Of a DNA stretch of 64,000 nucleotides, positions 7,527 to 30,851 are shown one piece after another. The DNA lies in NCBI RefSeq assembly GCF_014596945.1, contig NZ_JACVXB010000004.1:62001-126000 (forward strand), written 5' to 3'. The stretch's first letter is position 1; the number at the start of each line of letters is the position of its first letter. The notes under the pieces are model-generated. The model did not search any database. It had not been told where the DNA came from and was given only the letters and a program-made list of their open reading frames with translations. This stretch comes from Aestuariibaculum sediminum (GTDB lineage: Bacteria > Bacteroidota > Bacteroidia > Flavobacteriales > Flavobacteriaceae). Both the position numbers and the translations under genes were made by a program.

Positions 7527-8495
7527 CTACAATAAGTCTAAAATTTCAAGTCTTTCTTTTGCTAGATTATATCTTGCTTGCACATTATCAATTTGCTGCT
7601 GAGTTAATTTTATGCCATAGGTACGAAGTCCTCCGGCTATATCATTATGATGTATACCCATAGCAAGTTTAAGATATTCCATAAGTAGCGGCTGAGCATC
7701 CAGATACGATAAGGAATTTAAAGCCTGAGAAATTTTGTTTGCCTCAGCCCATTCTCCTTTTAAAACATGCTCTTGCATAGTAATACTCGCTTTTGGGAAG
7801 ATAACACCCACACCTGTAATTCCGCCACTTGCTCCAGCAAGTCCTGCGTGTACAGTTACTGAGTCAACCCCTGCCAAAACTTTTAAATCTTTGTTCTCTA
7901 ACATCAAAGTTTCAATAATTGAAACATCTATGGTCGATATTTTAAGAGCAGTTACATGAGGTAGGACAGAAATTCTTTGAAGAAGATTAGTTGATATTGC
8001 ATGATATCCAGCGGCATCAGGATTGTTATAAGGCATAATTGTTATACCTGCATTTCTTGCAGTTAATTCCGCAAGTTCATAGTAATCATACATTTCATCA
8101 TCCGATGGAAACGCCTTAGTTTTTGGTGGCATAACCATAACTGTATCCACTCCAACGGTTGCAAGACCTTCAACGATTTTAGCCAGCTCTTCCTTAGTTT
8201 CTGCTGCTGCTCCACTAATCAACGGTACATGGTATTGTTTAGCAACGTTAGAAAGGGCTTTAAGTAAATTAAGGCGCTCCTCAGTACTTAGGTAGCTATT
8301 CTCTCCCAAAGTTCCGGAGCCGACAAGTCCACCCATTCTGCTTCCTCCCTTTCCGTGAATTTTTAAAACATCTGCGGCGTATTTTTGTGTTGTATCTAGG
8401 TCAATTTCAAGGGCGCCTGATTTCGACTCTTTCAACCATGTAAATACAGCTGGCATAACACTATGCCTCCAATCTGAACTATTTATTTCTTTCAT
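7527..8495 (-). CDS. delta1-pyrroline-4-hydroxy-2-carboxylate deaminase (DapA superfamily)
   Basis: 322-aa class I aldolase-like protein of the dihydrodipicolinate synthase/N-acetylneuraminate lyase family. Visible motifs are GSGTLGENSYLSTEER, Tyr156 in MPYNNP and the Schiff-base Lys185 in ALKIST. In the Hyp pathway a member of this family converts pyrroline-4-hydroxy-2-carboxylate to 2-oxoglutarate semialdehyde with release of ammonia. The family alone cannot settle the substrate, but the three other Hyp enzymes lie within 6 kb, which makes this role by far the best reading. No signal peptide, so cytoplasmic. It is transcribed away from the AraC regulator and has its own promoter with a candidate AraC box at 8584-8616. 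Confidence 0.82.
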   Translation of the reverse strand: MKEINSSDWRHSVMPAVFTWLKESKSGALEIDLDTTQKYAADVLKIHGKGGSRMGGLVGSGTLGENSYLSTEERLNLLKALSNVAKQYHVPLISGAAAETKEELAKIVEGLATVGVDTVMVMPPKTKAFPSDDEMYDYYELAELTARNAGITIMPYNNPDAAGYHAISTNLLQRISVLPHVTALKISTIDVSIIETLMLENKDLKVLAGVDSVTVHAGLAGASGGITGVGVIFPKASITMQEHVLKGEWAEANKISQALNSLSYLDAQPLLMEYLKLAMGIHHNDIAGGLRTYGIKLTQQQIDNVQARYNLAKERLEILDLL

Positions 8496-8551
8496 ATTTC
8501 TTATTATCTTAAATTAACCTACAGTTAGCAGTTTTCAATTGATGTCTTAGG

Positions 8552-8559
8552 CAAAAGTA
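8552..8559 (-). promoter_or_regulatory. -7 promoter element of the deaminase gene
   Basis: On the - strand this reads TACTTTTG, a perfect match to the Bacteroidota -7 consensus TAnnTTTG, 56 bases before the start codon. A TTTG lies 16 bases upstream (8576-8579), one base short of the usual flavobacterial spacing range. The AraC box ends 24 bases upstream of it. Confidence 0.6.
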
Positions 8560-8583
8560 TAAAGTAAAACCTCATCAAATGAA

Positions 8584-28900: not shown

Positions 28901-29165
28901 CAAAACCTTCGGGTGCGCCTTCCGGGGTAGGGCTCCAATGGAATTTCCAATCGCCGTTGAGTAGTTTATAGCGTCCTGAGTTTTCTTTTTTATTTTGAAG
29001 TGCAGAACCTTCATCAGGAAATGAAAATGAAGTCGCCCTTGATGGCATGCGGTTTATACCAGATACCTGAGGGTCTTCCCAAGGTTTAATTATACCGTTA
29101 ATTTGAGCAAAAGTAAAGGTTGAAATTAAACTTACAACTAGAGATGTTTTTATAAAATTTTTCAT
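25965..29165 (-). CDS. GH2 beta-galactosidase (LacZ type), exported
   Basis: 1066 aa with signal peptide (cleavage near FTFAQI). LacZ order is visible: sugar-binding domain (residues about 60-240, [18 protein letters not shown]), Ig domain, TIM barrel, second Ig domain and the small-chain beta domain at the C-terminus ([24 protein letters not shown]). Acid/base Glu486 is in SLGNESG and nucleophile Glu562 in [10 protein letters not shown]. Length is normal for the family. It starts three bases after the M1 peptidase gene on the - strand, so both form one unit. It would remove beta-linked galactose from arabinogalactan chains. Unlike the GH2 gene at 2940 it is intact. Confidence 0.92.
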
Positions 29166-29168
29166 ATG

Positions 29169-30851
29169 TTATTGTTCCATGGTTTTTACCAGTTCAACAT
29201 TTAAAAAGTACATGTATTCAATTCTCCAAGGAGTGAATAAAAACTGATTGGTATGTTTAATATCTACACTTTGCCAATCTAATGTCGGTACAATTTTAAT
29301 ATATTGGTTTTGTTCTTTAAGTACTAATGGGAGGTTAAATCCTTCTATACAGTTGGTATATCGGTAGTGAATTTTATTGTTTTTTCCATCGACATATAAC
29401 TGCAATTTAGGAATTTGAGTGGTTGTTAGGTATTGTTTAAAGACGTAAGAATAGTCGTAACCAGCTTTGTCTGAAATGTATTTTTGAATTTCTGAGCCAT
29501 CAACCGTTTTGTTGTGAAATGTCATATTTAGGCCTGTGAGGATGTTTTTAAAAAGCTTATCGTTATCGATACTATGGCGAATGGTGTGCAGCATATTACC
29601 TCCTTTTACATACATATCGCCACTGCCTTGAGCGTTTACGCCATACGGAGGAATAATAGGCTTATCATTCTGAATACCATTTCTTAACCCAAAATTGTAA
29701 TCGTTGGCAGCCTCTGTTCCATAATTATAATCTAAAAACAGGGTTTCACTGTAATTGGTAAAACTTTCATGAATATACATATCGGCCAGATCTTTGCTGG
29801 TAATATTGTTACCAAACCACTCATGACCACTTTCATGAATAACAATAAAATCCCAGGTAAGTCCTAAACCAGTTCCAGAACCATCTCGACCACGATAACC
29901 TCCAGCATAATGGTTTCCGTATGATACGTTAGATTGGTGTTCCATGCCTGTATGTTCTGTTTCTACAAGTTTATAACCATCTTCATAAAACGGATAGGGG
30001 CCAAACCAGTATTCGAAAGCATCCAGCATATTATGAACTTCAGTTGGCATGTAGTTTTTGGCCTTTTCAACATTATAGTCTAAAACCCAATAATCTAAAT
30101 CGAGAAAGCCTTTAATGCCTGTATATTGTTCAGAAAACTTTTTATAATGACCTATATATGGAATAATACAATAATTACTAATCGGGTTATCGACATTCCA
30201 TTTATAGGACATGGTTCCGTCGTTATGTTTTGTTTCCTCCGTCAATCTTCCGTTTGCTATGGCCATAAGGTCTTTGGGAACACGCATGGTTAAAGAAGCT
30301 CCTAAATCAGGTTCGTCACTTTGATGATCTTTATTAGGAAACCATATGGAAGCTCCCAGACCCTGACAGGTAACCGTCATCCACGGACGTCCTTTATCAT
30401 CTTTAGTAAACGTCCAGCCGCCATCCCAAGGTGCCCTAATAGCTTCATGAGGTTTCCCGCTGAAATAGATTTTAACTTCGTGTTCGGAATTTAAGCCTTG
30501 TTTTGGTGTTTCAACGTGGTACACAAACCCTTCACGATTAAATTTTAGAGTTTCCGAATTATCGAGAATTATACTATCTATTTTTAAGGGCTCTTGAAGA
30601 TCGATTTGCATGCTATTAACATGTGTGTCTTGAATAACTTTATAGGTGATTATATTGTAACCAGAGGTGTACTTATTGTAAAAGTCAGGTTTCACTAAAA
30701 TATCATAACGAAGGACATTCCACCAGGCGCGCTCGGGAGTAATACTTCCTCTTAAGGTATCGGCATGGGTAAATTTTAAATCACTCTCTTGAGATTGTAT
30801 TTGAAATGAAAATAGTATAAAGCCAATGGCCACTAAAATATGTTTTTTCAT
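29169..30851 (-). CDS. M1 family metallo-aminopeptidase, exported
   Basis: 560 aa, signal peptide ending near QIQSQE. The gluzincin motif is His339-Glu340-x-x-His343 (VIHESGHEW) with the third zinc ligand Glu362 in YIHESFTNYSE. The exopeptidase motif equivalent to GAMEN reads TGMEH (301-305), one substitution from consensus. The N-terminal beta-saddle and catalytic domain are present, but the large C-terminal helical domain of PepN-like enzymes is not, as in many short Bacteroidota M1 proteins. First gene of a two-gene unit with GH2. In context it would trim N-terminal residues of deglycosylated peptides so that DPP-IV and M24 enzymes can proceed. Confidence 0.9.
   Translation of the reverse strand: MKKHILVAIGFILFSFQIQSQESDLKFTHADTLRGSITPERAWWNVLRYDILVKPDFYNKYTSGYNIITYKVIQDTHVNSMQIDLQEPLKIDSIILDNSETLKFNREGFVYHVETPKQGLNSEHEVKIYFSGKPHEAIRAPWDGGWTFTKDDKGRPWMTVTCQGLGASIWFPNKDHQSDEPDLGASLTMRVPKDLMAIANGRLTEETKHNDGTMSYKWNVDNPISNYCIIPYIGHYKKFSEQYTGIKGFLDLDYWVLDYNVEKAKNYMPTEVHNMLDAFEYWFGPYPFYEDGYKLVETEHTGMEHQSNVSYGNHYAGGYRGRDGSGTGLGLTWDFIVIHESGHEWFGNNITSKDLADMYIHESFTNYSETLFLDYNYGTEAANDYNFGLRNGIQNDKPIIPPYGVNAQGSGDMYVKGGNMLHTIRHSIDNDKLFKNILTGLNMTFHNKTVDGSEIQKYISDKAGYDYSYVFKQYLTTTQIPKLQLYVDGKNNKIHYRYTNCIEGFNLPLVLKEQNQYIKIVPTLDWQSVDIKHTNQFLFTPWRIEYMYFLNVELVKTMEQ

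Follow-up and report, generated by a model that had tools for sequence, protein, structure and literature searches.

A putative AraC-type regulon joining hydroxyproline catabolism to exported glycosidases and peptidases in Aestuariibaculum sediminum

Hydroxyproline (Hyp)-rich glycoproteins (HRGPs) are widespread in plant and green-algal walls, and to our knowledge their use by bacteria is poorly known. The D-Hyp (epimerase / alpha-ketoglutarate semialdehyde) clusters hold the same four enzyme families as the locus described here. In the available text of a study of proline-racemase neighborhood networks, peptidases and an ornithine-cyclodeaminase-type family lie near some members (PMC4113996). 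The accessible part of the report on a Colwellia collagen cluster of about 21 kb describes protein breakdown together with Hyp catabolism, including an epimerase and dipeptidases (PMC7883544). The Bifidobacterium HypBA1/HypBA2 and GH146 systems employ beta-L-arabinofuranosidases, of the same superfamily as the one reported below, on the Hyp-linked arabinose of HRGPs (PMC10850190, PMC7263609, available text), and GH146 enzymes releasing Araf-beta-Hyp are described in the accessible text of PMC10850190. A proposal for HRGP use by Latescibacteria assigned GH127 to the Hyp-linked arabinose of extensins (PMC4454575, available text). Judged by title or the start of the abstract, none of the literature matches listed, which leave subscription journals largely outside, described a joint system of Hyp catabolism, GH127 and a polysaccharide utilization locus (PUL).

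We analyzed 64,000 nt of Aestuariibaculum sediminum (GCF_014596945.1, NZ_JACVXB010000004.1, positions 62,001-126,000), the whole stretch being referred to as the window. A preliminary description had placed a Hyp route with M24, DPP-IV, GH127/146, DUF885, DUF5695-like, GH2 and M1 genes at 7527-30851. Every claimed open reading frame was present at its coordinates and the gene content was confirmed (Table 1). The pathway and the remaining genes had been called ‘fused’; strand and spacing indicate four separate transcription units instead. A GH53/GH43/GH2 PUL lies immediately upstream of the locus.

Table 1. Genes and operator-like sites of the locus, in window coordinates
Feature	Position	Strand	Evidence
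DHDPS-family protein, likely deaminase step	7527..8495	-	PF00701, 79.7 bits
Operator-like site 2, upstream of DHDPS gene	8585..8618	-	23.2 bits; 25.1 with Hyp-only matrix
AraC-family regulator (cupin + HTH_18)	8837..9682	-	Domain matches; in GH127/DUF5695-associated clade
Operator-like site 1, between AraC and ALDH	9735..9768	+	38.0 bits, window left out of training; 0 mismatches
Aldehyde dehydrogenase (ALDH), likely alpha-ketoglutarate semialdehyde dehydrogenase	10085..11617	+	PF00171
4-Hydroxyproline 2-epimerase	11648..12655	+	NF010578, 593 bits (cut-off 376)
FAD-dependent D-amino-acid (likely D-hydroxyproline) dehydrogenase	12747..13991	+	PF01266 (DAO), 204 bits
M24 Xaa-Pro-type peptidase	14015..15232	+	PF00557, PF01321
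Operator-like site 4, upstream of DPP4-GH127-DUF885-DUF5695 unit	15375..15408	+	18.3 bits; 23.1 with Hyp-only matrix
Exported S9 peptidase, DPP-IV-like	15466..17706	+	PF00930, PF00326
Exported GH146/GH127-like beta-L-arabinofuranosidase, LamG + Big_4 domains	17736..20783	+	PF07944, PF20736
Exported DUF885 protein	20815..22509	+	PF05960, 158 bits
Exported DUF5695 protein, PL27-like fold, candidate new carbohydrate-active enzyme	22529..25219	+	PF18951, 1316 bits
Exported LacZ-type GH2 beta-galactosidase	25965..29165	-	NF052611, 1061 bits (cut-off 999)
Exported M1-family peptidase	29169..30851	-	PF01433, PF17900; HEXXH at residue 339
Operator-like site 3, upstream of M1-GH2 unit	30937..30970	+	25.7 bits

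The epimerase, which exceeded its NCBIfam cut-off, carries both Cys motifs (MCGHGT and SPCGTGT), as expected of a 4-Hyp epimerase with two catalytic Cys. All four families of the trans-4-hydroxyproline route proposed earlier are present. From their sequences, the products of 7527, 10085 and 12747 are likely the deaminase, the semialdehyde dehydrogenase and the D-Hyp dehydrogenase, respectively; they belong to the right superfamilies and lie in conserved synteny, but none passed an NCBIfam equivalog cut-off, and it is the pathway context that assigns them their exact steps. The Lys, Tyr and GTxGE motifs of the 7527 product line up with solved DHDPS, the closest solved relative of the 10085 product is the NADP+ aldehyde dehydrogenase 3v4c (E 2e-125), and D-amino acid dehydrogenase models match the 12747 product with scores under their cut-offs. 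Inspection of the M24 peptidase N-terminus by eye revealed no evident signal sequence.

Among the exported proteins, the claimed DPP-IV proved to be S9/DPP-IV-like with an atypical serine motif, GTSAGG aligning with GWSYGG of the solved DPP-IV 2d5l. The claimed Glu/Cys3 zinc site of the GH127/146 protein is intact, E744, C746, C814 and C815 being invariant in a 74-row orthologue alignment. This site and PF07944 agree with the GH127/146 assignment, but the nearest solved relative is of GH146 and not GH127: BT0349 (5opj, 212 bits), against 32-53 bits for GH127 entries. The two family labels follow in part the available text of PMC10850190. In a phmmer alignment read by hand, Arg occupies the position of the acid/base E694 of Bll3HypBA1; the conserved E723 (in SECF) close by is a candidate acid/base if a small insertion is allowed. 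The DUF885 protein matched three PDB entries, all uncharacterised or lipoprotein entries.

The DUF5695 structure model (pLDDT 85.9) gave 5no8 as the best Foldseek match (E 5.6e-28, TM 0.81 on the target), and we model the protein as a distant structural relative of the PL27 arabinogalactan-protein lyases. Its sequence returned no PDB match, either alone (E up to 1) or as a 53-row profile (E up to 10); no sequence relative among solved proteins was found, and by these searches it falls outside the PL27 sequence family. DUF5695 occurs in one fungal paper among the literature matches listed.

An operator-like element, GGTAATATAGTAT-N8-GYTAATAA, adjoins the AraC-type regulator gene. It is a direct repeat with 21-bp spacing (about two helical turns) and occurs at all four transcription units; the window combines an HTH_18 regulator with suitably spaced direct repeats at target promoters, as in an AraC regulon. 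With a matrix trained without the window, only four matches exceeded 9 bits in the 64 kb. These precede the DHDPS gene, the AraC/ALDH units, the DPP4-GH127-DUF885-DUF5695 unit and the M1-GH2 unit; the genes behind them make up the whole gene set, and the extent originally claimed is the exact span of the units so preceded. A pattern search of the window yielded three matches against 0.01 expected, site 2 among them. A matrix built from Hyp-only loci scored the four sites at 23.1-29.8, compared to 11.0 for the fifth forward match and a peak of 16.0 for the reversed control. Site 3 is reversed relative to its genes, as it is beside M1 in three other genomes (L009, L199 and L201). The window scan found no site at the strain's own SusC/SusD pair (33607-38600); a SusC/SusD PUL under common control is therefore not what the window holds, and the regulon leaves uptake in this strain unexplained. 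SusC genes in several relatives do have the operator-like site.

The Hyp core was rejected as an unusual feature in itself, its epimerase family being present in 214 of 397 family genomes. The GH127-DUF5695 part is rare: GH127 was found in 18 and DUF5695 in 19 of the 397, with 17 carrying both (at most two candidates per genome scored in each survey). Kinship ignored, the epimerase family occurs in 17 of the 18 genomes with GH127, compared to 197 of 379 other genomes. The preliminary description had called for a search of flavobacterial genomes for Hyp epimerase, KGSADH and GH127 within 25 kb; in 10 of the 18 carriers GH127 and the epimerase are linked over this distance. Several carriers bear names that hint at plants or algae; Tamlana nanhaiensis, Flavobacterium pectinovorum and Maribacter sedimenticola are culturable ones. 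GH127 lies within about 10 kb in 62 of 80 DUF5695 loci, and an S9 gene in 42. In three Pedobacter loci (L177, L178 and L185, the last ending after ALDH), DUF5695, M1 and Hyp genes are linked in a different order without the window-type GH127. A genome of the same genus (G004) gave no GH127 or DUF5695 match with up to two candidates scored; its Hyp core and sites are present.

Two ordinary loci, a common Hyp operon and an unrelated arabinan/galactan PUL, might merely adjoin. Hyp cores without nearby GH127 are indeed the rule: in 80 loci sampled from the 214 genomes with a racemase (for most genera a single locus, taken where the contig was long enough), the orthologue lay within 10 kb in 7 and was absent in 73. 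The PUL directly upstream also fits such an arrangement, but the matrix scan found no operator-like site there. We regard chance adjacency as improbable in view of the linkage in carriers, the operator common to both parts, which in two genomes persists where the parts lie apart, and the AraC clade tied to the GH127/DUF5695 module.

De novo search of Hyp-only promoters, repeating the motif finding without the first matrix, recovered the operator repeat: it ranked first among the gapped words, being present in 34 of 65, with maxima of 13-17 in shuffled sequences. The first matrix, at 17 bits or more, matched 35 of 65 Hyp-only loci (reversed, 3). For the Hyp-only matrix, 15 of the 80 loci (carriers or close kin) were left out. 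Training sites came from 47 of the other 65 and were located with the first matrix, for which glycan-module loci had been part of the training set. The Hyp-only matrix matched 57 of 65 flavobacterial DUF5695 loci (reversed, 1 of 65); 41 of the 57 have no Hyp gene within the flank of about 10 kb, just beyond which a Hyp core may sit in some. At lead promoters it matched S9 in 35/41, GH127 in 8/28 and other genes in 18/383, compared to 0/398 internal genes; the weak classes were M1 (0/3), DUF5695 (1/43), DUF885 (0/24) and SusC (4/20). The test took in promoters at least 120 bases away from the edge of a locus; homologues below 42% identity, DHDPS excepted, were counted as ‘other’. Reversed matrices gave 6 against 169 matches in one scan and 4 against 78 in that with the Hyp-only matrix, so a chance AT-rich word was rejected.

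A looser pattern (up to 3 mismatches) was hardly enriched, with 116 matches against 95 in the backward control. Four candidates elsewhere in the strain's own genome were set aside: C6:13790 (17.5 bits with the first matrix, just 4.6 with the Hyp-only matrix), C16:168701 (7.9 and -1.8), and C14:293531 and C14:299675 (12-14.4 bits, within ORFs). In addition, L221 scored 6.4 bits with the first matrix and 18.3 with the Hyp-only matrix, and L004 has one 13.2-bit match. Six genomes carry the two parts apart. In G079 (L191) and G382 (L192) a site precedes the Hyp core, and the 20 kb covered there contain no AraC-like gene; in G034, G147, G331 and G157 no site of at least 17 bits was found at the Hyp core. 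G157 had none in the loci scanned, nor genome-wide at up to 3 mismatches.

In a quick tree of the AraC proteins, one clade (SH-aLRT 100) holds 14/14 both-part, 13/14 glycan-only and 5/62 Hyp-only loci, tracking the GH127/DUF5695 module both with and without Hyp genes next to it. The tree excludes six rows from duplicate genomes and all rows with a gene coverage of 0.7 or less; L008, L009 and L013, where GH127 is located at the locus edge or past it, were counted as ‘both’. The real target might instead be an arabinan- or AG-type polysaccharide (RG-I, AG-II), with Hyp a by-product and the AraC protein sensing a sugar such as arabinose. The neighbors in relatives, which include GH43, GH42, GH51-type and GH36, would suit this, as would the modelled resemblance of DUF5695 to an AGP lyase and the action of the GH146 enzyme BT0349 on arabinan-derived oligosaccharides (PMC10850190, available text). 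However, Hyp-only operons have this operator repeat and a member of this AraC family as well, which makes a Hyp-derived signal the likelier one, and the unit includes the peptidase-type genes M24, S9 and M1. We consider a polysaccharide target rather unlikely, if less so than chance adjacency.

We think it probable that the locus is a regulon for eating Hyp-rich glycoproteins (extensin-/AGP-like or algal), glycan and imino acid together. The unit of sugar, peptide and imino-acid genes claimed at the outset gains support from the linkage in carriers and Pedobacter, the AraC clade and the motif at Hyp and S9/GH127 promoters. Outside the cytoplasm, GH146/127 would take beta-L-arabinofuranose off Hyp-linked chains, DUF5695 and the LacZ-type GH2 would take off further sugars, and S9, M1 and perhaps DUF885 would cleave the exposed Pro/Hyp-rich peptide. 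In the cytoplasm, M24 would split Xaa-Pro/Hyp dipeptides, and the epimerase, D-Hyp oxidoreductase, DHDPS-like deaminase and semialdehyde dehydrogenase would convert Hyp to 2-oxoglutarate. The AraC-type regulator, presumably sensing Hyp or an intermediate, would bind the direct repeat of the four units and activate them; since both parts carry the same predicted on-switch, removal of the sugars and use of the amino acid are probably under the joint control of one regulator. To a further proposal we give roughly even chances: that the AraC operator of Hyp catabolism spread to the promoters of glycosidases, peptidases and the DUF5695 unit and, in relatives, to those of SusC/SusD, that DUF5695 is a new CAZyme family of PL27-like fold opening Hyp-linked glycans, and that the PUL-like system is induced by the amino acid of its substrate.

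Collagen or another animal Hyp protein is a very improbable target. The published Colwellia cluster does join an M9 collagenase to Hyp genes (PMC7883544, available text), but no M9 match was found in 17 carrier genomes, a weak test as control genomes also had none. Moreover, arabinose- and galactose-type glycosidases are ill-suited to collagen, and the carrier names mentioned above suggest plants or algae.

The HRGP reading offers a testable regulon: it names an operator sequence and a regulator, points to a candidate new enzyme family and traces a route that leads from the sugar chain to 2-oxoglutarate. It suggests a glycan-degrading system inducible by the amino acid of the protein backbone and not by the sugar, and the operator-like element could be used as a DNA marker to locate more HRGP-use genes in flavobacteria. 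The phrase ‘new type of locus’ in the preliminary description was a little strong, as the collagen and Hyp cluster of Colwellia (PMC7883544) and the GH127-to-extensin assignment in Latescibacteria (PMC4454575) precede it, going by their available text. The Colwellia cluster differs in its M9 collagenase and its phylum, and the accessible text names no deglycosylation genes (PMC7883544). The Bifidobacterium systems cover the sugar part only, with no Hyp catabolic genes mentioned in the available text (PMC10850190, PMC7263609), and the Latescibacteria proposal, in its accessible part, describes no locus, Hyp pathway or regulon, unlike the present case (PMC4454575). DUF5695 shares only 16% identity with the PL27 L-rhamnose-alpha-1,4-D-glucuronate lyases (BACCELL_00875), whereas the predicted fold is alike over most of its chain. 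From the D-Hyp clusters the locus differs in that its predicted regulon takes in exported glycosidases and peptidases.

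The 64-kb stretch covers positions 62001-126000 of a 409-kb contig in a 4.04-Mb genome, and every gene named in the preliminary description was found in it. The D-Hyp route of trans-4-hydroxyproline (Hyp) is encoded by four enzymes, namely an epimerase that scored far above the curated cut-off of its family and an oxidoreductase (DAO), a DHDPS-like protein and an aldehyde dehydrogenase (ALDH), each assigned to a fitting superfamily. Judged by eye, the N-termini of the S9, GH127/146, DUF885, DUF5695, GH2 and M1 proteins carry signal-like leaders, and no leader was evident in the M24 protein. 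The intact Glu/Cys3 zinc site claimed for the GH127/146 protein was borne out, its residues being kept and fully conserved in a 74-row alignment. The closest solved relative of this protein is the GH146 enzyme BT0349 (5opj), and passages of PMC10850190 describe GH146 enzymes acting on the Araf-beta-Hyp of Hyp-rich glycoproteins (HRGP).

Coordinates of the features in the window and in two loci fetched from relatives
Feature	Position	Content
Feature under study	7527-30851	Hyp core, S9-GH127-DUF885-DUF5695, M1-GH2
Separate PUL (also L002)	91-7428	SusC/SusD, DUF2264, GH43s, esterases, GH2s, S15 X-Pro peptidase, GH53
Two FecR-linked SusC/SusD loci	31332-54276	Back to back, flanking FecR and an ECF sigma gene
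SusC/SusD pair	33607-38600	
TlpA-like thioredoxin-domain protein	32155-33525	One
TlpA-like thioredoxin-domain proteins	48821-54276	Four, consecutive
Likely fructan locus	54573-63779	Hybrid two-component regulator with sugar-binding domain, MFS transporter, GH32, SusC
Ornithine-cyclodeaminase-family gene, Tamlana nanhaiensis	L107:12847-13818	Directly 3' of DUF5695; above the pyrroline-2-carboxylate reductase cut-off
Ornithine-cyclodeaminase-family gene	L086:15812-16771	After DUF5695

In a quick tree of 90 AraC proteins, a single clade (SH-aLRT 100) held the regulators of 14/14 loci with both parts, 13/14 with the glycan part only and 5/62 with the Hyp core only, the last five comprising four regulators closely related to the window's own and that of locus L023. 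At L098, an AraC gene of this clade is divergent from a gene that matches the arabinosylfuranosidase ArfA below the cut-off, followed by DUF5695 and M1. A long motif was conserved upstream of the clade AraC genes, irrespective of the divergent neighbour, with the consensus GGTAATATAGTAT-N8-GYTAATAA, that is, two half-sites spaced 21 bp. This search gave no good match at L015, L083 and L116 and a weak one at L105.

The motif pattern, with up to three mismatches, occurred three times in the window against 0.01 expected. A first matrix, built from 21 sites that all came from other genomes, gave four matches above 9 bits (38.0, 25.7, 23.2 and 18.3), one ahead of every transcription unit of the feature; the reversed matrix did not exceed 11.7. 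The same scan found no site in the upstream PUL, which stops just short of the feature, or at the SusC/SusD pair (33607-38600). With a looser pattern, the whole genome yielded five matches with 0-1 mismatches, four of them the window sites.

A search limited to the DHDPS promoters of 65 Hyp-only loci recovered this repeat, with the leading gapped words found in 34/65 loci and shuffle maxima of 13-17, and a second matrix was derived from 47 of these loci. In the window it returned the same four sites at 23.1-29.8, with fifth place at 11.0 and the reversed control at no more than 16.0. On 83 other loci it matched the promoters of lead S9 (35/41), AraC (14/17), DHDPS (4/8), lead GH127 (8/28), SusC (4/20) and lead DUF5695 (1/43) genes and 18/383 remaining lead promoters, and none for lead DUF885 (0/24), lead M1 (0/3) or internal genes (0/398); forward matches numbered 78 versus 4 for the reversed matrix. 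The distance between the S9 start and the centre of the site was 66-67 bases in 19/35 cases. The site is not universal among Hyp cores, as the first matrix reached at least 17 bits in 35/65 Hyp-only loci (reversed, 3/65).

We examined six genomes in which the Hyp core and glycan module are separate. Two (G079, loci L191 and L096; G382, loci L192, L102 and L103) have sites at both parts, with no AraC-like gene in a 20-kb stretch around the Hyp core. Three others (G034, G147, G331) have sites of at least 17 bits at the glycan module and none such at the Hyp core, and G157 has none of that strength at either part. G034, G079, G300 and G382 each have a site at a SusC gene as well.

The racemase/epimerase family was present in 214/397 genomes of the family and 2/5 of the genus. 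Among 80 loci fetched from these 214 genomes, a tblastn criterion detected epimerase and ALDH in 80, DAO in 76, AraC in 69 and DHDPS in 51, and seven held a GH127 orthologue (four at high coverage, three edge-cut and then confirmed). With at most two candidates scored per genome, GH127 orthologues (E <= 1e-100) were found in 18/397 genomes and DUF5695 in 19/397, including one weak fragment and two partial sequences; 17 genomes had both. Among the GH127 carriers, 17/18 also have the epimerase family, with the two genes within 25 kb of each other in 10/18. In G304, a further carrier, GH127 is at a contig end and the Hyp-core contig terminates in an operator-like site and an S9 gene. G004, of the window's own genus, has the Hyp core with sites, and neither GH127 nor DUF5695 was found there among up to two scored candidates. 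Many Hyp operons of the family (e.g. L006, L012, L018, L031) have, between the ALDH and epimerase genes, a DUF885 homologue that is only distantly related (21-25% identity), a hint that proteins of this family take part in Hyp or Pro peptide use.

We analyzed the best 80 of 229 DUF5695 relatives in public genomes (65 Flavobacteriaceae, 7 Sphingobacteriaceae, 3 other families, 5 without family name). Within about 10 kb, 62/80 had GH127, 42/80 S9, 42/80 DUF885, 27/80 DAO (at least 40% identity) and 18/80 the epimerase; in the gene order of the window itself, a flank of this length falls just short of most of the epimerase gene. Stricter limits left a Hyp gene in 22/80. Among these 80, the Hyp-only matrix, scanned across entire loci, matched 57/65 flavobacterial loci (reversed, 1/65), 41 of the 57 being without a Hyp gene in the flank, versus 2/15 of the others; the operator-like site is therefore mainly a flavobacterial trait. 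Pedobacter loci L177 and L178 have DUF5695 beside M1 and a complete Hyp operon in a different gene order, with window-type GH127 missing; in L177, the one scanned for it, M24 lies between DUF5695 and M1. Pedobacter L185 has DUF5695 beside M1, DHDPS and ALDH as far as the locus end, again in an order unlike the window's, with a 32% homologue rather than window-type GH127. Flavobacterium pectinovorum (L137) has S9-GH127-DUF885-DUF5695-GH42-unknown-M24-GH36 on a single strand. DUF6055 proteins occur repeatedly near DUF5695 (L183, L104, L092), with DUF4859 too in L183 and L104, and may share its substrate.

PDB single-sequence and profile searches found no solved relative of DUF5695. A model from 53 sequences (mean pLDDT 85.9, pTM 0.88) matched the polysaccharide lyase BACCELL_00875 (5no8, 5nok) at E ~1e-28 to 1e-27 and TM 0.80-0.81 on the target, with 15-16% sequence identity; among the matches listed, the next were ~1e-7 or weaker, with whole-chain TM near 0.2. 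Selected passages of PMC8377490 assign BACCELL_00875 to PL27 and describe it as taking the rhamnose caps off gum arabic AGP by beta-elimination. This match makes a carbohydrate-active role of DUF5695 likely, though a fold match is not proof of lyase chemistry or of a gum arabic substrate.

The best account of these results is a putative Hyp-responsive AraC regulon to which some flavobacteria would have added enzymes for stripping and cutting HRGP: the exported enzymes would strip the sugars and cut the polypeptide, and the regulon would answer to Hyp. Extensin or AGP is a possible substrate. Extensin, which carries Hyp-arabinosides and galactosyl-serine, would accord with the GH146-type enzyme, the peptidases and GH36 (from a relative), and AGP with GH2, GH42 and the PL27-like fold. 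We found no description of the joint regulon in the titles, abstract beginnings and selected passages of the literature searched; the system is already known in part, from Hyp clusters, HRGP arabinofuranosidases and a collagen and Hyp cluster.
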